Assembly: GCF_004116495.1 (NCBI RefSeq)
Contig: NZ_PDKC01000022.1
Location: 1-50,967 of the forward strand
Source of the DNA: Arcobacter sp. CECT 8985
GTDB taxonomy: Bacteria > Campylobacterota > Campylobacteria > Campylobacterales > Arcobacteraceae
Direction: 5' to 3'
Length of the DNA stretch: 50,967 bases
Shown here: positions 38,316 to 49,796 of the stretch, in pieces
How positions within the stretch are numbered: the stretch's first letter is position 1
Layout of the letters: the number at the start of each line of letters is the position of its first letter
Made by a program: the position numbers and the translations under genes
The notes under the pieces: generated by a model
Seen by the model: only the letters and a program-made list of their open reading frames with translations
The model's database searches: none
Told to the model about the DNA's origin: nothing

Positions 38316-38945
38316 ATGATAGAATTATCCAATTTATATATGTTTATATTAGCATCTTTTTTACTGTGTTTAGTGCCAGGTCCTGACAATATTTATGTTA
38401 TAACTCAAGGAATGACAAAATCAAAAAAAGCAGCTGTGGTTACTACTTTAGGATTATGTACAGGACTTATTATTCATACAAGTGCAGCAGCATTTGGAAT
38501 ATCAGTAATTTTTAAAACTTCACAAATTGCTTTTGATATTGTTAAGTATTTAGGTGCTGCGTATTTACTTTATATTGCATATCAAGTATTTATTCATAGA
38601 AATGAACCACTTGATTTAACAGCACATAGTTCCAAAAAAGGATTAAAAGCATTATACTTAAAAGGATTTATTATGAATATCTTAAATCCAAAGGTATCAA
38701 TATTCTTTTTAGCTTTTTTACCACAATTTGTAAGTGTTGAAAATGGAAATGTACCTTTACAGATGATAATCTTGGGATTGATTTTTATGTTACTTACTGT
38801 TATTGTCTTTTCTTGCATAGGAGTTGCTGCAAATATGCTAAGTTCAAAACTGCTTCAAAAACCAAAAATCGTAACTTATATGAATATTGCAACCTCTTTT
38901 GTATTAGTAAGCCTTGGTATAAAATTGGCTCTTACCCATAGATAA
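38316..38945 (+). CDS. LysE/RhtB-family exporter (second copy)
   Basis: A 209-residue membrane exporter with about six helices. Family motifs are CLVPGPDNIYVITQGMTK (about 19-36) and GFIMNILNPKVSIFFLAFLPQF (middle, named by region). The PGPDN form is closer to the threonine/homoserine type than the copy at 15586 (PGADF). ATG follows AAAGGAG. The substrate is not predictable. No regulator lies next to it. Confidence 0.92.
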   Translation: MIELSNLYMFILASFLLCLVPGPDNIYVITQGMTKSKKAAVVTTLGLCTGLIIHTSAAAFGISVIFKTSQIAFDIVKYLGAAYLLYIAYQVFIHRNEPLDLTAHSSKKGLKALYLKGFIMNILNPKVSIFFLAFLPQFVSVENGNVPLQMIILGLIFMLLTVIVFSCIGVAANMLSSKLLQKPKIVTYMNIATSFVLVSLGIKLALTHR

Positions 38946-38995
38946 TGACACTTTTGATACTAGTATTATTATAAAAATTGTGATAAAATAATAAT

Positions 38996-39913
38996 ATGAA
39001 CATTATAATATTATTATTTTTAACAATTTTTTCATTATATCCAAAAGAATTAATTTCACCTATAAAAGTACAGCAAAATTATAATCTACAAAAGGCTCTA
39101 TTAGGAAAAAAATTATTTTTTGATACTAGATTAAGTAAAGATAATACAATATCTTGTGCTTCGTGTCATGATATAGAAAATGGAGGGGATGATAATAGAG
39201 ATTTTTCTATTGGCGTTGGTAATAAAAAAGGAAAAGTAAACTCCCCTACTGTATTAAATAGCAAATATAATTTTACTCAATTTTGGAATGGTAGAGTAAA
39301 AGACTTAAAAGAACAAGTTTCTGCACCTATTCACAATCCAATAGAGATGAATTCATCTTTAAATGACGTAGTAAAAAAGCTAAAAGAAGATAACTATTAT
39401 AATAAACAATTCAATCTACTATTTAAAGATGGTTTAACAAAAAAAAATTTAGTTGATGTTATTGCAGAGTTTGAAAGTGCTTTGGTAACACCTAATTGTA
39501 AATTTGATAGATATTTAAAAGGTGATGAAAAAGCTTTAAGTAAACTAGAGTATGAAGGCTATATACTATTTAAAAATTATGGTTGTATATCTTGTCATAA
39601 TGGAATAAATATTGGTGGAAACCTTTTTCAAAAAATGGGAATTTTAAAAAAGTATAAAACAAAAGATTTAGGAAGATATGAAGTTACAAAAGATATAGAT
39701 GATAAAAACTATTTTAAACTTCCTACATTAAGAAATATAAGTGAAACTGCTCCATATTTCCATGATGCTTCAGCAAAAACTTTAAGAAAAGCAGTATCAA
39801 TAATGATGGAATATCAATTAGGGATAAAACCTAAAAAGAGCGATGTTGATAAAATTGTAAAATTTTTGGATACTTTAACTGGACATAAACCTAAAATAAT
39901 GGATAATAAATGA
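38996..39913 (+). CDS. Di-haem cytochrome c peroxidase (CcpA/MauG family)
   Basis: A 305-residue periplasmic protein with an N-terminal signal helix (about 1-17). Two c-type haem sites are seen: C54ASCH58 and C197ISCH201. Family segments include DTRLSKDNTISC, FWNGRVKDLKEQVSAPI, PIEMN and TLRNISETAPYFHD. It reduces H2O2 using electrons from cytochrome c, or acts as a MauG-like oxidase. Its stop overlaps the start of a sensor kinase by four bases, which is unusual for a peroxidase and suggests a redox-sensing role. Confidence 0.92.
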   Translation: MNIIILLFLTIFSLYPKELISPIKVQQNYNLQKALLGKKLFFDTRLSKDNTISCASCHDIENGGDDNRDFSIGVGNKKGKVNSPTVLNSKYNFTQFWNGRVKDLKEQVSAPIHNPIEMNSSLNDVVKKLKEDNYYNKQFNLLFKDGLTKKNLVDVIAEFESALVTPNCKFDRYLKGDEKALSKLEYEGYILFKNYGCISCHNGINIGGNLFQKMGILKKYKTKDLGRYEVTKDIDDKNYFKLPTLRNISETAPYFHDASAKTLRKAVSIMMEYQLGIKPKKSDVDKIVKFLDTLTGHKPKIMDNK

Positions 39914-41796
39914 AAAAGATATTTTTTATAGTTTCTAGTTTTATATTTTTGTTATTTATATTGATTTTTACAACAATTCATTCAAATAGTAGAATAGATG
40001 ATTTTTTTAAGATGCAAAAAAATATCTCTGATCTTGTTTTGACAAATAAAAATTTTAATATTTTTATGTCAAGTAGTATTTCTTATAATAATTTTGATTT
40101 AATTCAAAAAGATATTTTTAAAATAAAATCAATAATAAAACAGATAAAAAAAAGTGAACTTCTAAACAATGAATTAAACTCTTTAAAACCTGATTTTGAA
40201 CATATAAATAAACTATTTGAAAAGAAAATAATAAATATTGAAAAACTAAAATCTTCAAGTGCTGTTTTAAATAATTCTTATAGATATATTCAAACTATAT
40301 ATGAAAAATCACCAGAAGCTAAATTAAGTAAAATATATACAAAATTAATAGGCTTAGAGCTAAATAGTGAAATAGAGATAAATAAACTTAAAACAAACAT
40401 AGAAAAAATCAAAATTAAAAGTGATTTTGAAAAGATATTTATAGAACATGCTAAAAATATTTTATTTTATTATAACAGATTTAATAAACTAACAACAAAT
40501 ATAAAAAATCTTGAATTAAAATCAAAATTAGAAGAGTTTGAAAAAAAATACAATAATTATTCATATGTATTTATTAATGATTTGAAACTTGTATTATGGA
40601 GTATTATTATAATATTTGCAGTTAGTTTATTGATATTTTTATATTATTATTCAAAAATTGCTTATCAAAAAATTCAATTAAATAGGTTCAAAACAGCAGT
40701 ACAAAATAGTGATAATATTATTATGATAACCGATTATAATAAGATAATAAAGTATGTAAATGATAATTTTGAAAATTATAGTGGATATGAAAGAAGTGAA
40801 ATTATTGGACAAAAAGCTTCAATTCTAAAATCTGGACTACAAAGTAAAAGTTTTTATAAAAATCTAAATGAAACTATATATGCAGGGCATAGATGGATGG
40901 GAGAGTTTATAAATAAAACAAAAAATAAAGAGTTGATTTATGAAAAAGCTTCAATATCTCCTATTTTTGATGAAAAAGGTAATATTCTTGAGTTTTTAGC
41001 TATTAAACTTGATATAACAAATGAAAGAAAAATAGAAAAAGAATTAAAAAACAAAGAACATATCTTGATGCAACAAGCAAAAATGGTAGCTTTGCATGAA
41101 TTACTTGATAGTATATCTCACCAATGGAGACAACCTTTATCAGCTATTTCAACTGCAGCAAGCGGAATAAAATTAAATAAAGAGTTTGATTCTTTAGACG
41201 ATAAGACTTTTAATAAACTTATGGATTCTATTATAGATAATACTCAGTACTTATCAAAAACAATTGATGATTTCAAAAATTTTTTTAAAACAGATAATGA
41301 AAACAGACTATTTAATATCAAAGAGACTATAAATAAAGTATTTAATCTATTAAGTTATAAATTTAATGAAAATAAAATAGAACTTATTAAAAATATAGAA
41401 AATATTAGTATTGAAGGTCTAGAACATGAACTTATACAATCTTTAGTAAATCTTTTTAATAATGCACAAGATGCAACAAAAAGAAACCTAACAAAAGAAA
41501 GTAGAAAGCTAATATTTTTGAATGCTTATGGTGATGATACAAAAAATCTAATTATTAAAATAAAAGATAATGCAAATGGAATTGATGATAAGATAATTGA
41601 TAAAATTTTTGAACCTTATTTTACTACAAAACATCAAAGTCAAGGTACAGGAGTTGGACTTTATATGACTTATGAAATTATTTCAAAACATTTTAATGGA
41701 AAAATATATGTAAAAAATGTATCATATGTATATGAAAATATTGAGTATAAAGGTGCAGAGTTTACTATTAAGATACCTACAAAAATCAAATATTAG
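39910..41796 (+). CDS. Sensor kinase with helical periplasmic domain and PAS domain
   Basis: A 628-residue kinase. One helix at 3-22 and one at 228-248 bound a periplasmic domain that is almost wholly helical, Lys/Asn-rich and Cys-free, resembling a DAHL-type sensor (tentative). A PAS domain follows (about 262-380; AVQNSDNIIMITDYN, ENYSGYERSEIIG). The His404 box is SISHQWRQPLS; N- and G-boxes are NLFNNAQDAT, DNANGID and GTGVGLYMTYEI. The start is inside the peroxidase stop (ATGA), so its signal may be the state of that peroxidase or its haem. Confidence 0.9.
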   Translation: MKKIFFIVSSFIFLLFILIFTTIHSNSRIDDFFKMQKNISDLVLTNKNFNIFMSSSISYNNFDLIQKDIFKIKSIIKQIKKSELLNNELNSLKPDFEHINKLFEKKIINIEKLKSSSAVLNNSYRYIQTIYEKSPEAKLSKIYTKLIGLELNSEIEINKLKTNIEKIKIKSDFEKIFIEHAKNILFYYNRFNKLTTNIKNLELKSKLEEFEKKYNNYSYVFINDLKLVLWSIIIIFAVSLLIFLYYYSKIAYQKIQLNRFKTAVQNSDNIIMITDYNKIIKYVNDNFENYSGYERSEIIGQKASILKSGLQSKSFYKNLNETIYAGHRWMGEFINKTKNKELIYEKASISPIFDEKGNILEFLAIKLDITNERKIEKELKNKEHILMQQAKMVALHELLDSISHQWRQPLSAISTAASGIKLNKEFDSLDDKTFNKLMDSIIDNTQYLSKTIDDFKNFFKTDNENRLFNIKETINKVFNLLSYKFNENKIELIKNIENISIEGLEHELIQSLVNLFNNAQDATKRNLTKESRKLIFLNAYGDDTKNLIIKIKDNANGIDDKIIDKIFEPYFTTKHQSQGTGVGLYMTYEIISKHFNGKIYVKNVSYVYENIEYKGAEFTIKIPTKIKY

Positions 41797-41805
41797 GTAG
41801 TTATA

Positions 41806-42462
41806 TTGAAGATACTTTATGTTGAAGATGATGAAATTGCAAGAGTAAATGCAGTTGAATTTTTAGAAGATTATTTTGAAAGTATATATAGTGCTAAAGA
41901 TGGACTTGAGGCTTTAAGTCTTTATGAAAAATTTCATCCAGATATTATAATCACAGATATTCAGATGCCAAAGATAAATGGCTTAGAGTTTATAAAAAAA
42001 GTAAGAAGATATGATTTAAATACTCAAATCATCATAATAAGTGCTTATAGTACTAAAGATTATCTCCTTCAAGCTGTGGAATTAAGACTTATAAAATATC
42101 TTATTAAACCTGTAAAATTTGATGAATTATTAAAAGCAATAGAAGAATCAAAAGAATTTTTACAAAAAAGTAGTTCAAATATTATTAACTTTTGTGATAA
42201 TTTAACTTTTGATATGTTTAATAAGGTTGTAAAAAAAGACAACACTCTTATAAAAATAACTATAAAAGAGATACTTCTTCTTGAACTACTACTTAAAAAT
42301 AAAAATCGCTATGTTACTTATCAAGAAATAGAAAATTATGTATGGGCAGATGATGTTATGAGTAAAGATGCTTTAAAATCTTTAGTAAAAAGATTAAAAA
42401 ATAGTCTTAATTGTGAGTGTATAACAAATCTTTCTGGATATGGTTATAAAATAGATGTATGA
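41806..42462 (+). CDS. Response regulator with winged-helix output
   Basis: A 218-residue regulator. The receiver has Asp8-Asp9 region (VEDDE), phospho-acceptor Asp51 (TDIQMP), Ser of ISAYS and Lys of IKPVKF. The C-terminal part is an OmpR-type winged helix (about 135-218, ending SGYGYKIDV). TTG at 41806 is the start; no ATG occurs before conserved residues. It lies between two kinase genes and overlaps the second by eight bases, so it may integrate two inputs. Confidence 0.9.
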   Translation: MKILYVEDDEIARVNAVEFLEDYFESIYSAKDGLEALSLYEKFHPDIIITDIQMPKINGLEFIKKVRRYDLNTQIIIISAYSTKDYLLQAVELRLIKYLIKPVKFDELLKAIEESKEFLQKSSSNIINFCDNLTFDMFNKVVKKDNTLIKITIKEILLLELLLKNKNRYVTYQEIENYVWADDVMSKDALKSLVKRLKNSLNCECITNLSGYGYKIDV

Positions 42463-43771
42463 TATAAATATAGTATTAGCTTATGGTATTACATTTGGAA
42501 TACTTATTATGAGTATTTTATATACTTTAGTTAGGTATATTTATCAAAAAGAGTTTTTTTATTTAGCTTATTGTTTTACACAAATATTCTCTTTGGGATT
42601 TATTATAATTTATAGCCATTTTTTTGATATTGCTGATTTTTATAAAGAAATTTGTATTATATTTGCATCTTTTTTTGCATTTGCATTTGCATTTGGATTT
42701 TTTAAAGGGCAAATTTTACCATCTATTGATAGTAAAAAAGAGTTATTTTTAATAAGTTCTTTGACTATTTTTGCGATTGTTATTGTAATTTATCACTATA
42801 TGCTTTTTTCATATCTTCCTTATACAATTATTTATTTATTACTACTATTATCTGTTATTTTTAATAGTAAAGAAAATATAAAAAAATCCCTACTACATAT
42901 CTTTTCATGGTCTTTGGTATGCTTGTTTTTATTTATTTTACAAGTAAAAAGTATCTATATTAAAAGTGGTTATATAGATTTAATTCTTGTAGCTTTTATG
43001 CTTGAAGCTGTTTTATTTACAATAACTTTAGAAAATAGAAATAAAGAGTTAAAAAATATAAATGAAGACTATGAAAATATGCTATTACAGCAAACAAAAC
43101 TTGCAAAAACAGGCTCAATGATAGGTAATATTGCTCATCAATATAGACAACCACTAAATAATATCTCATATATTTTAATAAATTTAAGAAATAAATATGA
43201 AAAAGATAAATTAACAAAAGAGTTCTTTTATACAAAATATAATCAAATAGAAGAACAATTACACTTTATGTCCAAAACAATTGATGATTTTAAAGAGTTC
43301 TATTCTCCAAATAAAGAAAAAGAAAATTTTTTACTAATAGATTCAATTAATCGTGCAGTAAATATACTCCAATCACTTATCAAGCAATATAATGTAGAGC
43401 TAAATATAAATTTTAATACAAGCGAAGGTACAAAAGTATATGGAGTTGCAAATGAGTTCTCACAAGTTATTCTTGTTTTGCTAAAAAATGCAATAGAAGC
43501 TTCAAAAGATGAAATAAGACCTATTATTGATATAAATATCTCTTCTAAAAATGGGTTAATAGAAATTGAAATTATTGATAATGGAAAAGGTATTTCAAAA
43601 ACAACTTTTTCAAAACTTTTTAAACCATATTTTTCTACAAAAAAAGAAGGCTTTGGAATAGGTCTTTATATGGTAAAACTCATAATAGAAAAAAGTTTCA
43701 ATGCAGAAATAAAAGCCTATTCTTTAGAAAAAGGAATGAAATTTACCATTTTTCTAGAGAAAAGCTTTTGA
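42455..43771 (+). CDS. Seven-helix membrane histidine kinase
   Basis: A 438-residue kinase. The first 190 residues are about seven transmembrane helices with short loops and no periplasmic domain, so it probably senses within the membrane. A coiled segment leads to His228 in NIAHQYRQPLN, a variant with Tyr for Trp of the HQWRQPL box. The N-box is VLLKNAIEAS and the G-boxes are DNGKGIS and GFGIGLYMV. It overlaps the response-regulator gene. It ends five bases before the convergent adhesin gene. Confidence 0.9.
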   Translation: MYDINIVLAYGITFGILIMSILYTLVRYIYQKEFFYLAYCFTQIFSLGFIIIYSHFFDIADFYKEICIIFASFFAFAFAFGFFKGQILPSIDSKKELFLISSLTIFAIVIVIYHYMLFSYLPYTIIYLLLLLSVIFNSKENIKKSLLHIFSWSLVCLFLFILQVKSIYIKSGYIDLILVAFMLEAVLFTITLENRNKELKNINEDYENMLLQQTKLAKTGSMIGNIAHQYRQPLNNISYILINLRNKYEKDKLTKEFFYTKYNQIEEQLHFMSKTIDDFKEFYSPNKEKENFLLIDSINRAVNILQSLIKQYNVELNINFNTSEGTKVYGVANEFSQVILVLLKNAIEASKDEIRPIIDINISSKNGLIEIEIIDNGKGISKTTFSKLFKPYFSTKKEGFGIGLYMVKLIIEKSFNAEIKAYSLEKGMKFTIFLEKSF

Positions 43772-43776
43772 TTTAA

Positions 43777-46700
43777 CTACTTTTTATCACTTATATAAAA
43801 TTCTTGTTCAATACCATTTGGTAAATTAATAGCATTGTTAACTAAAGTAATTATAGAGTTATCACTTAGTCTAACTCTAACATCAGTTGATCCACTTTGC
43901 TCTTTTAGTTGTGATAGTGAAACTAATGTTTTATTAGAGTTTGTTTCAACAGCAGATGCGACAACAGTTTTGTTATTAGCTATATTTGCTTGATTAAAAT
44001 TATTAACTTTTACGCTTTGGTTTTTTACTGTATTTGCTATATCTTTTGTGATAGTCTTATTGTTTATTGGTGTTACTATTTTATTTACAGTATTTTGGTT
44101 ATTTGGTGTTGGTTTATTTGGTGTTGGTTTATTTGGTGTTGTTGGTAAAACATACTTCCCTATTGCCCAAGTAGTTACACCATTTTTAGTAATGAGTACT
44201 GGGTAATTTTTTATAGGAAGAGTTTCATCAAGTTTTATATTCCAACCTGCATTTTTAAAGGTATTTATATCTTGCATTTGAGCCGTTTTTAAACCTGTTA
44301 CAGTTTGGTTGTTATTATCATATCCCATACCATTTGTTTGACCAGATGTCTCTATATCCCAAAAAGAGTTAGAGATAGAAGAAGAATTATTAACTCCAAC
44401 CAATCCTCCTACAATATTTCCCTTTCCAGAAACAGAACCAGAGGCATAAGAGTTAGAGATAGATGAAGTTCCATTATTAGAAGAACCATTAACTCCAACC
44501 AATCCTCCTATATTATTCCCCTCTCCAGAAACAGAACCAGAGGCATAAGAGTTTTCAATAGTTGAAGTTCCATTAGAAGCAGAAGCATTCAGTCCAACCA
44601 GTCCTCCTACATAATTTCCCTCTCCAGAAACAGAACCAGAGGCATAAGAGTTTTCAATAGTTGAAGTTCCATTAAAAGATAAATTCTCTCCAACCAGTCC
44701 TCCTACATGAAAATTCCCAGTTATATCAACATTTGTAAGACCAATGTTTTTAATAGTTGAGTTTTCTGTATGTCCAAAAAGACCTACATAATTTTGACTA
44801 GGCCTATTTATAAAAAGCTTATCAATAGTATGACCAAGACCATCAAAGTTTCCTGTAAATTTGTTTGAACTATTTCCAATAGGATTAAACCCTTTATTGC
44901 TCCACATATCTTTTGTAAAAGTAATATCTTTTGCTAAAGTATAGTTTGCAGTTAAATCCATAGCCATAAGTTGAAGTTGGTGGTCATTTGTAATATTTGT
45001 AGAGTATTCACTTCTTAAAAATGGTCTTGTTTCTCCATCTATCATATACCAAGTATTTGTAAAATCAAAACCAGTATAAGTTGATTCAGTGAAAGCATCT
45101 ACTGTAGCGGTTGAACTATGTATTCCTGTACCACCTCCATCAGAAGAAGTTTGACCTGTTGTATCTATATCCCAGTAAGAGTTAGAGATAGATGAAGTTC
45201 CATTAAAAGAAGAATTAGCTCCAACCAATCCTCCTACAGAATATTCCTCTCCAGAAACAGAACCAGAGGCATAAGAGTTAGAGATAGATGAAGTTCCATC
45301 AAAAGAAGAATCATTCTGTCCAACCAGCCCTCCTACATAACCTCCCTTTCCAGAAACAGAACCAGAGGCATAAGAGTTAGAGATAGCTGTAGTTCCATTA
45401 TAATAAGAATCATTCTTTCCAACCAGCCCTCCTACATAACCTCCCTTTCCAGAAACAGAACCAGAGGCATAAGAGTTAGAGATAGATGAATTTCCATTAA
45501 AAGAAGAAGAATTATATCCAACTAGTCCTCCTACATAAGATCTTCCAGTTATATCAACATTTGTAAGACCAATGTTTTTAATAGTTGAGTTTTCGGTATC
45601 TCCAAAAAGACCTACATAATTTTGAGTAGGCCTATTTATAAAAAGCTTATCAATAGTATGCCCAAGACCATCAAAGTTTCCAGTAAAATACCTTGAACTG
45701 TTTCCAATAGGATTAAATCCTGCTTCATTATCCCAATTTTTAGTATCACTAGCATCAATATCAGAACCAAGTTCATATTTCCCCGCAAGAGCAGTATTTA
45801 TCCACTGAAGTTGATTTACATTGTTTACTATAACTTTTCCATTTGTTCCAAATATTACTTTATCAAAATTATTATATGCATTAAAATATACTCCACCATC
45901 TGAAGAGTTTGTATTTTCTATTGCTGCATTTACATATATCTCATCACCAGCAGTTAGTTTAAGTTGCGTAGCATCAGACCAAGTGATATTTTCATTTACT
46001 GTGATATCTTCATCTGCTTGAAGTTCTATATCTGCATTTGTAAGTGCATTTTGTATTGCAGTTGCACTTACACTTGCTCCTGTTAAGTCACTTCCTCCTG
46101 TTGATTCAATAGTCATATTAACTGGGTCAAGTAACCATTTATTTGCAGTAATTAAAGTATTTGAATATACATTTAACTCTTTTCCAGAAGTTTCTATAAA
46201 GCCATCTTTGGCTTCAATTGTTCCACCAACTTGAGCTTCACCACCATGTGCAAATAGTTCAACCTTACCAGTAACATCATCAAGTGAATTAGCTTCAATA
46301 ACACCAGTATTGTTAACAACTCCTTTTAGCAACTCATCAACTGCATTTGTAGTAAGATAAACTTCTCCTCCATCTGCTTTAATATTTCCAGAGTTTTTAA
46401 CAAGTGAATCTAATACACCTTTATCAACTTTTAGATTAACTAAAGAGTTTCCATTTAAGTTGATAGAGTATTCATCTGCACCAACTAAATGTATACTTCC
46501 TCTTACTGCTTCTATGCTCCCAGAGTTTTGTACTTCATTTGCTGCAAAGATAACAGAACCAGAATCTTTGATATTTATAGTTCCTTGATTTATAACAGAA
46601 TCTGTAGAATTACCTTTAAAGTTATAATTTCCAGCTTGAAAATCTAAATCAGATAAGTTTTTAGTAGTAGCAAGTATACCAGCAGTATTTACTTTAGCAT

Positions 46701-47076
46701 TTTTGCCAAATAAAACACCATTTGAATTTAAAATCCAAACTTGACCATTTGCATTAAGTGCACCATTGATAACACTTCTTTCATTTCCTATTACTCTGTT
46801 TAGAGTAATTGAAGTTTTATTTGGTTGATTAAAATTAACAGTTTCATTTGAAGCAATGTTAAATTTGTTCCAGTTAATAGAAGCTTTATTTGTGCTTTGG
46901 TTGATGTTTGTAATATTTCCACTTTGAGAGATATTTGCAGTTCCACTAGTAACAACACCACCAGATGGAGCAGAAAAAAGTGAAGTAGTAGTAAGTAATG
47001 CACTTACTACTAAACTTATCTTCCCTCCTTTTAAGATTCTAAAACTATTTTTTGTGTTTATTATACTTTTCATCAT
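43777..47076 (-). CDS. TPS-type filamentous haemagglutinin-like adhesin with GLUG repeats
   Basis: A 1099-residue secreted protein. A signal peptide (about 1-36, ending LFSA) precedes a haemagglutinin-activity (TpsA) domain: SQSGNITNINQSTNKASINW, FNIASNETVNFNQP, NRVIGNERSVINGAL, and SNGVLFGKNAKVNTAGI. The middle has two copies of a module of about 276 residues (from FTGNFDGLGHTIDKLFINRP), each with three GLUG-type repeats of 33 residues (YASGSVSG...VGGLVG). The tail holds a TPNKP repeat and a Gln/Asn-rich part. TpsA proteins need a TpsB outer-membrane pore; none is in this window. No C-terminal anchor seen. The preceding gene on the same strand is a response regulator. Confidence 0.88.
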   Translation of the reverse strand: MMKSIINTKNSFRILKGGKISLVVSALLTTTSLFSAPSGGVVTSGTANISQSGNITNINQSTNKASINWNKFNIASNETVNFNQPNKTSITLNRVIGNERSVINGALNANGQVWILNSNGVLFGKNAKVNTAGILATTKNLSDLDFQAGNYNFKGNSTDSVINQGTINIKDSGSVIFAANEVQNSGSIEAVRGSIHLVGADEYSINLNGNSLVNLKVDKGVLDSLVKNSGNIKADGGEVYLTTNAVDELLKGVVNNTGVIEANSLDDVTGKVELFAHGGEAQVGGTIEAKDGFIETSGKELNVYSNTLITANKWLLDPVNMTIESTGGSDLTGASVSATAIQNALTNADIELQADEDITVNENITWSDATQLKLTAGDEIYVNAAIENTNSSDGGVYFNAYNNFDKVIFGTNGKVIVNNVNQLQWINTALAGKYELGSDIDASDTKNWDNEAGFNPIGNSSRYFTGNFDGLGHTIDKLFINRPTQNYVGLFGDTENSTIKNIGLTNVDITGRSYVGGLVGYNSSSFNGNSSISNSYASGSVSGKGGYVGGLVGKNDSYYNGTTAISNSYASGSVSGKGGYVGGLVGQNDSSFDGTSSISNSYASGSVSGEEYSVGGLVGANSSFNGTSSISNSYWDIDTTGQTSSDGGGTGIHSSTATVDAFTESTYTGFDFTNTWYMIDGETRPFLRSEYSTNITNDHQLQLMAMDLTANYTLAKDITFTKDMWSNKGFNPIGNSSNKFTGNFDGLGHTIDKLFINRPSQNYVGLFGHTENSTIKNIGLTNVDITGNFHVGGLVGENLSFNGTSTIENSYASGSVSGEGNYVGGLVGLNASASNGTSTIENSYASGSVSGEGNNIGGLVGVNGSSNNGTSSISNSYASGSVSGKGNIVGGLVGVNNSSSISNSFWDIETSGQTNGMGYDNNNQTVTGLKTAQMQDINTFKNAGWNIKLDETLPIKNYPVLITKNGVTTWAIGKYVLPTTPNKPTPNKPTPNNQNTVNKIVTPINNKTITKDIANTVKNQSVKVNNFNQANIANNKTVVASAVETNSNKTLVSLSQLKEQSGSTDVRVRLSDNSIITLVNNAINLPNGIEQEFYISDKK
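44102..44140 (-). repeat. 15-bp tandem repeat (TPNKP linker)
   Basis: The unit GGTGTTGGTTTATTT (plus strand) is repeated nearly three times and encodes a Pro-rich TPNKP linker in the adhesin. In-frame gain or loss of units would change linker length without a frameshift. Confidence 0.8.
44426..44722 (-). repeat. 99-bp repeat array 1 in adhesin
   Basis: The sequence CCAGAAACAGAACCAGAGGC starts at 44426, 44525 and 44624, exactly 99 bp apart, so each unit is 33 codons. Units are nearly identical over about 45 bases and vary elsewhere. Confidence 0.9.
45251..45547 (-). repeat. 99-bp repeat array 2 in adhesin
   Basis: The same 20-base start recurs at 45251, 45350 and 45449, again 99 bp apart. 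The arrays and their flanks (for example ATTTGTAAGACC at 44731 and 45559) are offset by 828 bp, showing an older duplication of a whole 276-codon module. Confidence 0.9.
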
Positions 47077-47945: not shown

Positions 47946-49796
47946 TTGAAAATTTTTTTATTTATTCTTATATCATTTTTTTGTAGTAAATCTCTTTTGG
48001 GAAACTCTATTGATTTATCAAAAGATAGTATTAAATATATTGGTGAATATAGTACTTTTATTGAAGATAAATCTTCCAAATACAGTATAGATGAAGTTTC
48101 AAAACTTAAAGATAGCAGTTTCTCTAGATTAAAAAATGATGTATTTATATCTTTTTTTACAGATTCAACTTATTGGTTTAAATATAAAGTAGTAAACAAT
48201 ACAACTAGTGAATTAAAAAGATATTTTGTAAGTGATACTCCTTGGATTGATACTATAAATATCTATATTTATGATAATAAAAATAGATTAACAATGTATA
48301 AAATAGGAAATACATTGCCTTTTCATCAAAGAAGTATGAAAATAAATCTTTTAAATCAAGTACATACTTTTTCAAAAGGTAAATCAACTGTTTATATACA
48401 AGTAAAAACAAAAGATCCTTTTATTTTGCCTTTATCAATTTTAAGTGAAGTTTCATTTTATAAGAAATTACGAAAAATGTCTTTTGTAGAAACTGCTACT
48501 TATAGTATAATTATAGCTATATTAATATTTAATCTTCTTATTTTTATTATTACTAGATTTAAACCATATTTTTATTATTGTTTGTATCTTCTGTCATATC
48601 TTACTATGAGTTTAGGTTATGATAGTTATACTTTTAAGTATATTTTTTATAATTATCCTGATATTCAAAGTTGGATGCAATCTATACCTATACTTTTATA
48701 CTTGTTGTTTGGACTACTTTTTGCGAAGTCATTTTTGGAGTTAAAAGACAAACAACCATTAATAAATAAATACACAAATTTATTTATATATGTACATTGT
48801 TTTTTAATCATCATAACTGTGCTTTTAGGGTATAAATATACTATTTTTTATGCAAGTTGCATTACACCTTTTGTTAATACATATATGGTTTTTCTTGGTG
48901 TTTATTCTTATATAAAAGGAAATAAAAATGCATCTTTTTATATTTTAGCAACTCTTTTTGGTTGTATTGGTGCATTTTTGACAGCTTCTACAGCTCTTTC
49001 TATTATAGATTATAATTGGTATTTGTTTAAAGGAGTTGATATTGGTATTGTTGTTGATTCTATTTTATTCTCAATTGCATTAGCTTATAGATATACATCT
49101 TTAACTAAAGAGATAAAAAATACAAGAGATGAACTAATAAAATTAAATCATAATTTAGAAGATAAAGTAAAACAAAGAACTAATAAATTAGATATTGAAT
49201 TAGAAAATAAAAATGTCTTATTAAAAGAGCTATCTCATAGGGTTAAAAATAATTTGCAAATAATAAGTGCATTATTATCTATGGATAAAAACAAAATCAA
49301 AGATGAATATGATAAAGAACTTATTGATATAAATATAAAAAGAATAAAATCAATGTCAATTTTATATGAAAATTTTTTGGAAATTGAATCAGATAGTAAT
49401 ATTTATTTAAAGCAGTATTTATTTAAAGTTGTAGAAGAGTTTGATAATAGTTTGACCTCTATTAAACTTAAGTATGAAATAGACGTTGAAGATGATTTAT
49501 TTTTTGAACAAACAAATCTAATACCAATTGGACTTGTTTTAAATGAGCTACTATTAAATAGTATAAAATATGCTTTTTCAAAAGATAAAAATGCAAAAAT
49601 AACAATATCTTTTATAAAAAGTGATAATAAAATCTATTTTAAATATAAAGACAATGGAAGAGGTACAGATATAAGAAAATTAAAACAAGGTTTTGGGTTT
49701 AGTCTGATTGATGCATTAATCTCTCATCAACTAAATGGTGAAGTTATATGTAAAAATAATAATGGTTTACAATATGATATTATTCTTCCACTATAG
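47946..49796 (+). CDS. 7TM-DISM sensor histidine kinase (HisKA_2 type)
   Basis: A 616-residue kinase. A signal peptide (about 1-20) is followed by a periplasmic 7TMR-DISMED2-like beta domain (about 25-175; FTDSTYWFKYKVVNN), seven helices (about 183-385), a coiled coil (about 395-425) and a HisKA_2 box with His431 in LKELSHRVKNNLQIISALLSM-type sequence. The ATPase shows LVLNELLLNSIKYAF and DNGRGTDI. TTG at 47946 is the start (AAAGG upstream). The DISM domain may bind carbohydrates. It is divergent from the response regulator. Confidence 0.9.
   Translation: MKIFLFILISFFCSKSLLGNSIDLSKDSIKYIGEYSTFIEDKSSKYSIDEVSKLKDSSFSRLKNDVFISFFTDSTYWFKYKVVNNTTSELKRYFVSDTPWIDTINIYIYDNKNRLTMYKIGNTLPFHQRSMKINLLNQVHTFSKGKSTVYIQVKTKDPFILPLSILSEVSFYKKLRKMSFVETATYSIIIAILIFNLLIFIITRFKPYFYYCLYLLSYLTMSLGYDSYTFKYIFYNYPDIQSWMQSIPILLYLLFGLLFAKSFLELKDKQPLINKYTNLFIYVHCFLIIITVLLGYKYTIFYASCITPFVNTYMVFLGVYSYIKGNKNASFYILATLFGCIGAFLTASTALSIIDYNWYLFKGVDIGIVVDSILFSIALAYRYTSLTKEIKNTRDELIKLNHNLEDKVKQRTNKLDIELENKNVLLKELSHRVKNNLQIISALLSMDKNKIKDEYDKELIDINIKRIKSMSILYENFLEIESDSNIYLKQYLFKVVEEFDNSLTSIKLKYEIDVEDDLFFEQTNLIPIGLVLNELLLNSIKYAFSKDKNAKITISFIKSDNKIYFKYKDNGRGTDIRKLKQGFGFSLIDALISHQLNGEVICKNNNGLQYDIILPL

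Follow-up and report, generated by a model that had tools for sequence, protein, structure and literature searches.

Four adjoining genes on the 50,967-nucleotide (nt) contig of Arcobacter sp. CECT 8985 analysed here (NZ_PDKC01000022.1, the whole stretch being called the window) encode a secreted di-haem cytochrome c peroxidase homologue (CCP), a sensor histidine kinase with a periplasmic DAHL domain (kinase 1), a response regulator and a second sensor kinase (kinase 2). The conserved unit is the di-haem CCP together with the DAHL receptor, not the four-gene layout. We consider it probable, at about 0.62, that the CCP and kinase 1 make up one two-protein receptor in which the CCP acts as a haem co-receptor to the DAHL protein, likely for peroxide. 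A sequence-only reading of this DNA had suggested that the peroxidase may be a periplasmic receptor reporting peroxide or haem state to kinase 1, and that one regulator is fed by two kinases. The receptor half is strongly supported by gene linkage, fold and loss of the haem-gating His, and is far more general than was proposed; the dual-kinase half is weak. The arrangement is far beyond chance, as the CCP-DAHL overlap recurs across phyla.

Relatives of the kinase 1 periplasmic domain nearly all adjoin a CCP in a survey of 101 genomes of the family, and at the 60 CCP loci of the family a long membrane protein is encoded next on the same strand in every case except at contig ends. Some of these loci have DAHL domains below the Pfam cut-off, which were detected with a profile built in this analysis. 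Across 249 Campylobacterota genomes, 72 of the 80 DAHL matches above cut-off begin 93-198 nt behind a CCP match, and a Pfam DAHL match lies beside 73 of 75 such CCPs. The eight remaining DAHL domains comprise five with a diverged CCP directly upstream (L171, L172, L173, L175 and L177), two whose CCP is in pieces (L174 and L176) and one from an additional DAHL gene that immediately precedes a CCP-DAHL pair (L170).

The pairing extends outside the phylum. A profile search of genome contigs with the CCP alignment gave 80 loci, many in Comamonas, Polaromonas, Pseudomonas, Thiodiazotropha, Oscillatoria and Poribacteria, with a partner matching the DAHL profile behind the CCP in 77 and a 78th partner (L234) recognised by Pfam. 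Those loci were selected by similarity to the linked CCP, and the reverse test starting from DAHL weighs more: with the DAHL profile alone, applied to 397 Pseudomonadota genomes, a CCP was directly upstream in all 29 of the newly sampled, best-scoring DAHL loci. A CCP-linked DAHL gene was also present in 12 of 12 further genomes from outside the Campylobacterota (Oscillatoria and Poribacteria included), along with three extra DAHL genes that are unlinked (L334-L336). Next to classical CCP loci there was no DAHL profile match (0/20).

Coupling between the two genes is tight. Of 166 gene pairs, 137 overlap or abut, 76 of them sharing exactly 4 nt, and in 162 the two genes are at most 30 nt apart. 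No fusion of a CCP to a receptor was found, the long CCP frames at L226 and L267 being only GC-rich stop-to-stop frames. On the question, raised by the sequence-only reading, of how often the peroxidase occurs without the kinases, members of the CCP clade nearly always sit beside a DAHL receptor, although the receptor concerned is frequently something other than a kinase.

The region behind the DAHL domain varies. By Pfam, the family loci encode DAHL-PAS-kinase, DAHL-PAS-GGDEF-EAL, DAHL-PAS-GGDEF, DAHL-GGDEF-EAL and DAHL-kinase proteins; chemoreceptors (MCP) are a further output among DAHL receptors, and loci outside the phylum contribute hybrid kinases with Hpt and an adenylate/guanylate cyclase. 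About 12 changes of output type are counted along the CCP tree, versus 43 with shuffled labels; judged from this tree, outputs are swapped occasionally and the front CCP-DAHL pair stays. The distance matrices of CCP and DAHL correlate with r 0.78, where the highest of 300 permutations reached 0.09, and for 141 of 166 pairs the pair closest by CCP is also one of the three closest by DAHL. These figures show that CCP and DAHL are inherited together as a unit; they do not show contact. The cyclase output belongs to a CCP-linked DAHL protein (L265, 7034-8746), an unusual combination.

The window CCP has two CxxCH haem sites (C54/C57/H58 and C197/C200/H201), and its nearest solved relative is the N. 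europaea CCP (1iqc, E 3.4e-82). It had been described from the sequence as a MauG/CcpA protein. The CCP part of that description holds (PF03150, 191 bits; Met270) and the MauG part does not, the score in the NCBIfam model TTQ_mauG being 145.6 bits where the cut-off is 443.85, and the second haem having Met270, not Tyr. In the alignment column for the distal haem ligand of classical CCPs, His stands in 27 of 30 classical CCPs and in 0 of 169 linked ones, with Ile or Val in 149 of the latter; the window CCP has Val74 instead of the distal His of classical CcpA. Linked CCPs likewise lack the remainder of the H-K-W loop; the inter-haem Trp97, Gln107, Glu117 and Met270 are retained in 93-97% of them. 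Loss of the distal His would leave the peroxidatic haem open without reductive activation, and because this His is lost the peroxidatic haem of the window CCP is probably permanently open.

A tree of 200 CCPs and the sequences of three solved structures splits cleanly, with support 0.996, into classical CCPs (with those of N. europaea and Shewanella) and a DAHL-linked side. E. coli YhjA nests inside the DAHL-linked clade with weak support and has Val at the distal His position. Its placement suggests a recent shared ancestry of a respiratory peroxidase and the paired CCPs. A predicted structure of the window CCP (predicted local distance difference test, pLDDT, 77, and below 50 in the haem region) was set aside as evidence.

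An AlphaFold model of the kinase 1 DAHL region, made with 55 relatives, is all-helical with pLDDT 94.8. Closest to it in structure come the McpS ligand domain and the sensor domain of TorS, TorS-TorT entries among them (Z 12-13.7), and VIA-align superposes it on TorS 3i9w with Z 13.4 and 2.4 Å across 192 residues, where the helical-bundle background reaches about 13. Foldseek gave no match to the model with E below 0.001, and comparison of the DAHL sequence with solved structures gave no convincing match. The resemblance of the model to TorS supports, without proving, a shared docking mode. Among 212 linked DAHL domains Asp63 is present in 210 and His180 in 171; among seven unlinked domains, which are few, partly related and in some cases poorly aligned, Asp is present in five and His in one, the last (L184) lying at a contig end, beyond which a CCP may follow. 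Three DAHL kinases without a CCP (L181, L182 and L183, genus g11) have the conserved His replaced by Asn or Asp.

We infer physical contact, peroxide as the signal, conformational transmission and a target of kinase 1 in the following scheme. The secreted di-haem CCP, with its probably open haem, would react with or bind a periplasmic oxidant or other haem ligand, most likely H2O2, and would dock on the membrane receptor at its TorS-like DAHL domain. The haem or redox state of the CCP could then change the helical bundle and so reach the kinase by way of the second transmembrane (TM) helix and the PAS domain. The same CCP-DAHL front end is reused elsewhere with cyclic di-GMP enzymes, chemoreceptors, hybrid kinases and a cyclase, and in this genus the pair would have been placed ahead of a pre-existing system of regulator and 7-TM kinase.

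The partnership might instead be enzymatic, the CCP modifying DAHL by residue oxidation of the MauG or MbnH kind, or making a DAHL ligand, so that the receptor reads the product. MauG and MbnH, from a neighbouring family, modify partner proteins; the linked CCPs retain the catalytic Trp, Gln and Glu, and in DAHL Asp63 is fixed and His180 goes with the CCP. Small-molecule binding reported for Tlp10, the C. jejuni chemoreceptor for which PMC9796306 cites DAHL as a new domain, would also fit. However, the second haem has the Met ligand of a CCP rather than the Tyr of MauG, and the most conserved DAHL positions include no standout Trp, with Tyr126 and Tyr62 retained in only about 60%. We regard modification or ligand synthesis as improbable.

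A hint at the signal comes from a sister layout shared by six genomes from two further Arcobacteraceae genera (L101, L108-L111 and L113), in which a regulator is followed by a linked CCP, a DAHL kinase and a classical CCP. The classical CCP lies 88-93 nt downstream of the DAHL kinase, and the gap before it holds a 17-nt element, AATTTCCACATTTTTTT, in 6/6 genomes (one with one mismatch). The element occurs nowhere else in 2.9 Mb of sampled sequence and has no match in the window. The simplest reading of this gene order is a peroxide-responsive circuit that would govern a true peroxidase; the element could alternatively be a plain promoter.

The classical CCP that follows the module in these six genomes, together with the fact that sensor and target genes often adjoin, would also suit a CCP that is a peroxidase protecting or insulating the receptor, or part of the response, with DAHL sensing something unrelated. 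Yet the linked CCP gene precedes and overlaps the receptor gene even with chemotaxis or cyclic di-GMP outputs, where no transcriptional target is needed, and classical CCPs are unlinked to DAHL. In C. jejuni 81-176, moreover, neither CCP contributes to H2O2 resistance according to PMC3156733 and PMC4518328. A purely protective or responsive CCP seems to us very unlikely.

Several points weigh against a CCP co-receptor. Two Campylobacter-like loci, L174 (7286-8186) and L176, have a docA-like CCP split into separate reading frames and an intact DAHL chemoreceptor, which suggests that DAHL can work alone. A few DAHL proteins without an adjoining CCP exist (L181-L183 and L334-L336), at least one member of the CCP clade (L270) is without a DAHL partner, and L228 is ambiguous. 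The presence in the clade of YhjA, a quinol peroxidase, would mean that loss of the His is no proof of a sensory role; the Z of about 13 between the DAHL model and TorS is close to the helical-bundle background; and the small molecules that Tlp10 is reported to bind include malate (cited in PMC9796306).

The regulator and kinase 2 are a separate, common overlapping two-component pair. The regulator is directly upstream in 30/30 sampled kinase 2 loci, and kinase 2 occurs in about 60 of the 101 family genomes, mostly far from any CCP-DAHL kinase. Conservation of the four-gene order, which the sequence-only reading had proposed to check, turns out to be local, not general: 6/6 sampled congeners share the order, as does one other genus (G009), and in two genomes of another genus (G008 and G026) the CCP-DAHL half and the regulator-kinase 2 half are about 3 kb apart. 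That reading suggested that both kinases feed one regulator, with the CCP as the input of kinase 1. The retained order speaks for it, as do the overlapping or nearly overlapping genes, which suggest a single transcript, and the fact that kinase 1 adjoins no other regulator gene. However, the regulator and kinase 2 stand alone in most genomes that carry them, and kinase 1 is elsewhere also found without an adjoining regulator. At positions +7/+11/+12 from the His of the dimerization and histidine phosphotransfer (DHp) domain, kinase 1 has S/T/A and kinase 2 has N/Y/I, each fixed within its group among close relatives. Because these specificity residues differ, shared phosphotransfer is disfavoured, by a rule derived from EnvZ and applied to this kinase family by analogy. 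Two kinases on one regulator is thus a weakened and rather unlikely proposal, whose first half can be compatible with the two-protein receptor. An origin of the two kinases by duplication was rejected, kinase 1 ranking 36th of the 40 kinases of the host genome by similarity to kinase 2.

Features of the locus are collected in Table 1. The genes for CCP and kinase 1 overlap by 4 nt (ATGA), 9 nt separate kinase 1 from the regulator gene, and the regulator and kinase 2 genes overlap by 8 nt. Three structural statements made from the letters alone were borne out: translational coupling of the peroxidase to the first kinase agrees with the ATGA overlap, an all-helical periplasmic domain and a PAS domain in kinase 1 agree with the model and the PF13426 match, and a regulator overlapped by a seven-helix kinase agrees with the 8-nt overlap and seven hydrophobic segments in residues 4-192 of kinase 2. 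The 7TMR-DISM_7TM match of kinase 2 scores 19.8 bits, below the Pfam cut-off of 29. The TM helices of kinase 1 span residues 4-22 and 224-242, with the periplasmic domain between them.

Table 1. Features of the CCP-kinase-regulator-kinase locus in the window.
Feature	Position	Strand	Evidence
Di-haem CCP homologue, 305 aa, secreted (signal peptide), proposed haem co-receptor	38996..39913	+	PF03150 191 bits vs cut-off 25.6, 2e-56
First c-haem motif CASCH, residues 54-58, peroxidatic haem	39155..39169	+	Sequence; C/C/H in 169/169 DAHL-linked CCPs
Val74, at the position of the distal haem ligand His of classical CCPs	39215..39217	+	Residue comparison
Span with catalytic Trp97, Gln107, Glu117	39284..39346	+	Kept in 163, 164, 162 of 169 linked CCPs
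Second c-haem motif CISCH, residues 197-201 (C197/C200/H201)	39584..39598	+	Sequence
Met270, second haem axial ligand, CCP-like, not MauG-like Tyr	39803..39805	+	158/169 linked CCPs
Sensor histidine kinase 1 (DAHL-PAS-HisKA-HATPase), 628 aa, phospho-His404	39910..41796	+	ATGA overlap with CCP
Periplasmic DAHL domain of kinase 1, residues 23-223, predicted all-helical, TorS/McpS-like	39976..40578	+	PF19443 43.9 bits, cut-off 38
Asp63 of DAHL domain, near-invariant when linked	40096..40098	+	210/212 linked domains
His180 of DAHL domain, conserved in CCP-linked, mostly absent from unlinked	40447..40449	+	171/212 linked, 1/7 unlinked
PAS domain of kinase 1	40717..41019	+	PF13426 1.6e-13
OmpR-type response regulator, Asp51, TTG start	41806..42462	+	PF00072 and PF00486
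Sensor histidine kinase 2 with seven TM helices (phospho-His228), the regulator's cognate partner	42455..43771	+	Pfam, locus survey, DHp residues
Intergenic promoter region before CCP, GTGACAC-n-GTGATA-like element; possible regulator site	38943..38995	+	Six-congener alignment; weak inference

In the region before the CCP, the repeat is accompanied by a -10-like box, conserved in the alignment of six congeners; a terminator and promoter scan gave no terminators and no promoter excess. The upstream LysE gene (38316-38945) was rejected as a member of the module, being not upstream in G009 or other genera. Directly downstream of kinase 2, and convergent with it, is a two-partner-secretion exoprotein with a TPS domain and GLUG repeats (43777-47076, minus strand), and further on lies a 7TMR-DISM receptor with a HisKA_2-type kinase domain (47946-49796, plus strand). 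The host genome (2.79 Mb) also encodes a classical CCP elsewhere.

Among known peroxidases, classical CcpA of P. aeruginosa and N. europaea shares with the window CCP the fold family, two c-haems, the Gln, Glu and Trp residues and Met on the second haem; unlike the linked CCPs, it has the distal His loop (H-K-W), falls in a separate clade and has a free gene, where theirs is nearly always coupled to that of a receptor. E. coli YhjA and the tri-haem quinol peroxidases resemble the linked CCPs in lying on the same side of the tree and in having Val for the distal His. They have an additional N-terminal region with a further haem, and YhjA reportedly has a respiratory role (Khademian and Imlay 2017, cited in PMC6682613). 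No DAHL match was found in any of 14 control genomes.

The C. jejuni pair DocA-DocB resembles the window pair in that the gene for a di-haem CCP of the non-classical clade is directly upstream of a DAHL receptor gene, and differs in that the output of DocB (Tlp10) is a chemoreceptor whereas that in the window is a PAS histidine kinase. The DAHL chemoreceptor at L174 (592 aa, next to the broken CCP) has DsbB-like, QueC, FAA hydrolase, pseudouridine synthase and adenylosuccinate lyase neighbours, an order which we take to match that around DocA-DocB in C. jejuni. According to PMC3156733 and PMC4518328, docA (Cj0020c) is directly upstream of docB/Tlp10 (Cj0019c) and docA and docB mutants are poor colonisers. 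PMC5656828 sets DocA apart from the classical CCP Cj0358 and places it nearer the tri-haem quinol peroxidases, which agrees with the CCP tree here. The statement of the sequence-only reading that it knew of no described system of this layout needs qualifying, since C. jejuni has the gene pair with a chemoreceptor output. We found no paper linking CCP to DAHL or presenting DocA as the co-receptor of DocB, in a search that left the primary docA and docB papers outside, so that novelty is uncertain.

We think it slightly better than an even bet that the DAHL family serves mainly to dock a dedicated di-haem peroxidase co-receptor, the two making a general oxidant-sensing front end in the periplasm that is fitted to kinases, chemoreceptors, cyclic di-GMP enzymes and cyclases, and that DocA is the missing co-receptor of Tlp10/DocB. 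If so, a whole Pfam receptor family would acquire a specific partner in the periplasm together with a probable signal, and enzymes regarded as removers of peroxide would include a branch that reports it. It would also explain a C. jejuni puzzle, namely that the peroxidase homologue DocA is needed for chick colonisation without giving peroxide protection and is encoded beside DocB/Tlp10, which has a separate colonisation phenotype. Ligand assays on isolated DAHL domains may then miss the real partner. CCP-DAHL pairs are found in environmental bacteria such as Comamonas as well.

The proposed arrangement would be of the type of TorT-TorS, LuxP-LuxQ and XylFII-LytS (listed in PMC6321045), in which a membrane kinase is docked at its sensor domain by a periplasmic protein. 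Among kinases, it is TorS whose sensor domain comes nearest to the DAHL model in fold. In TorT-type systems, however, the partner is a bilobal solute-binding protein, whereas here it is a di-haem redox enzyme, and the outputs reach beyond kinases.

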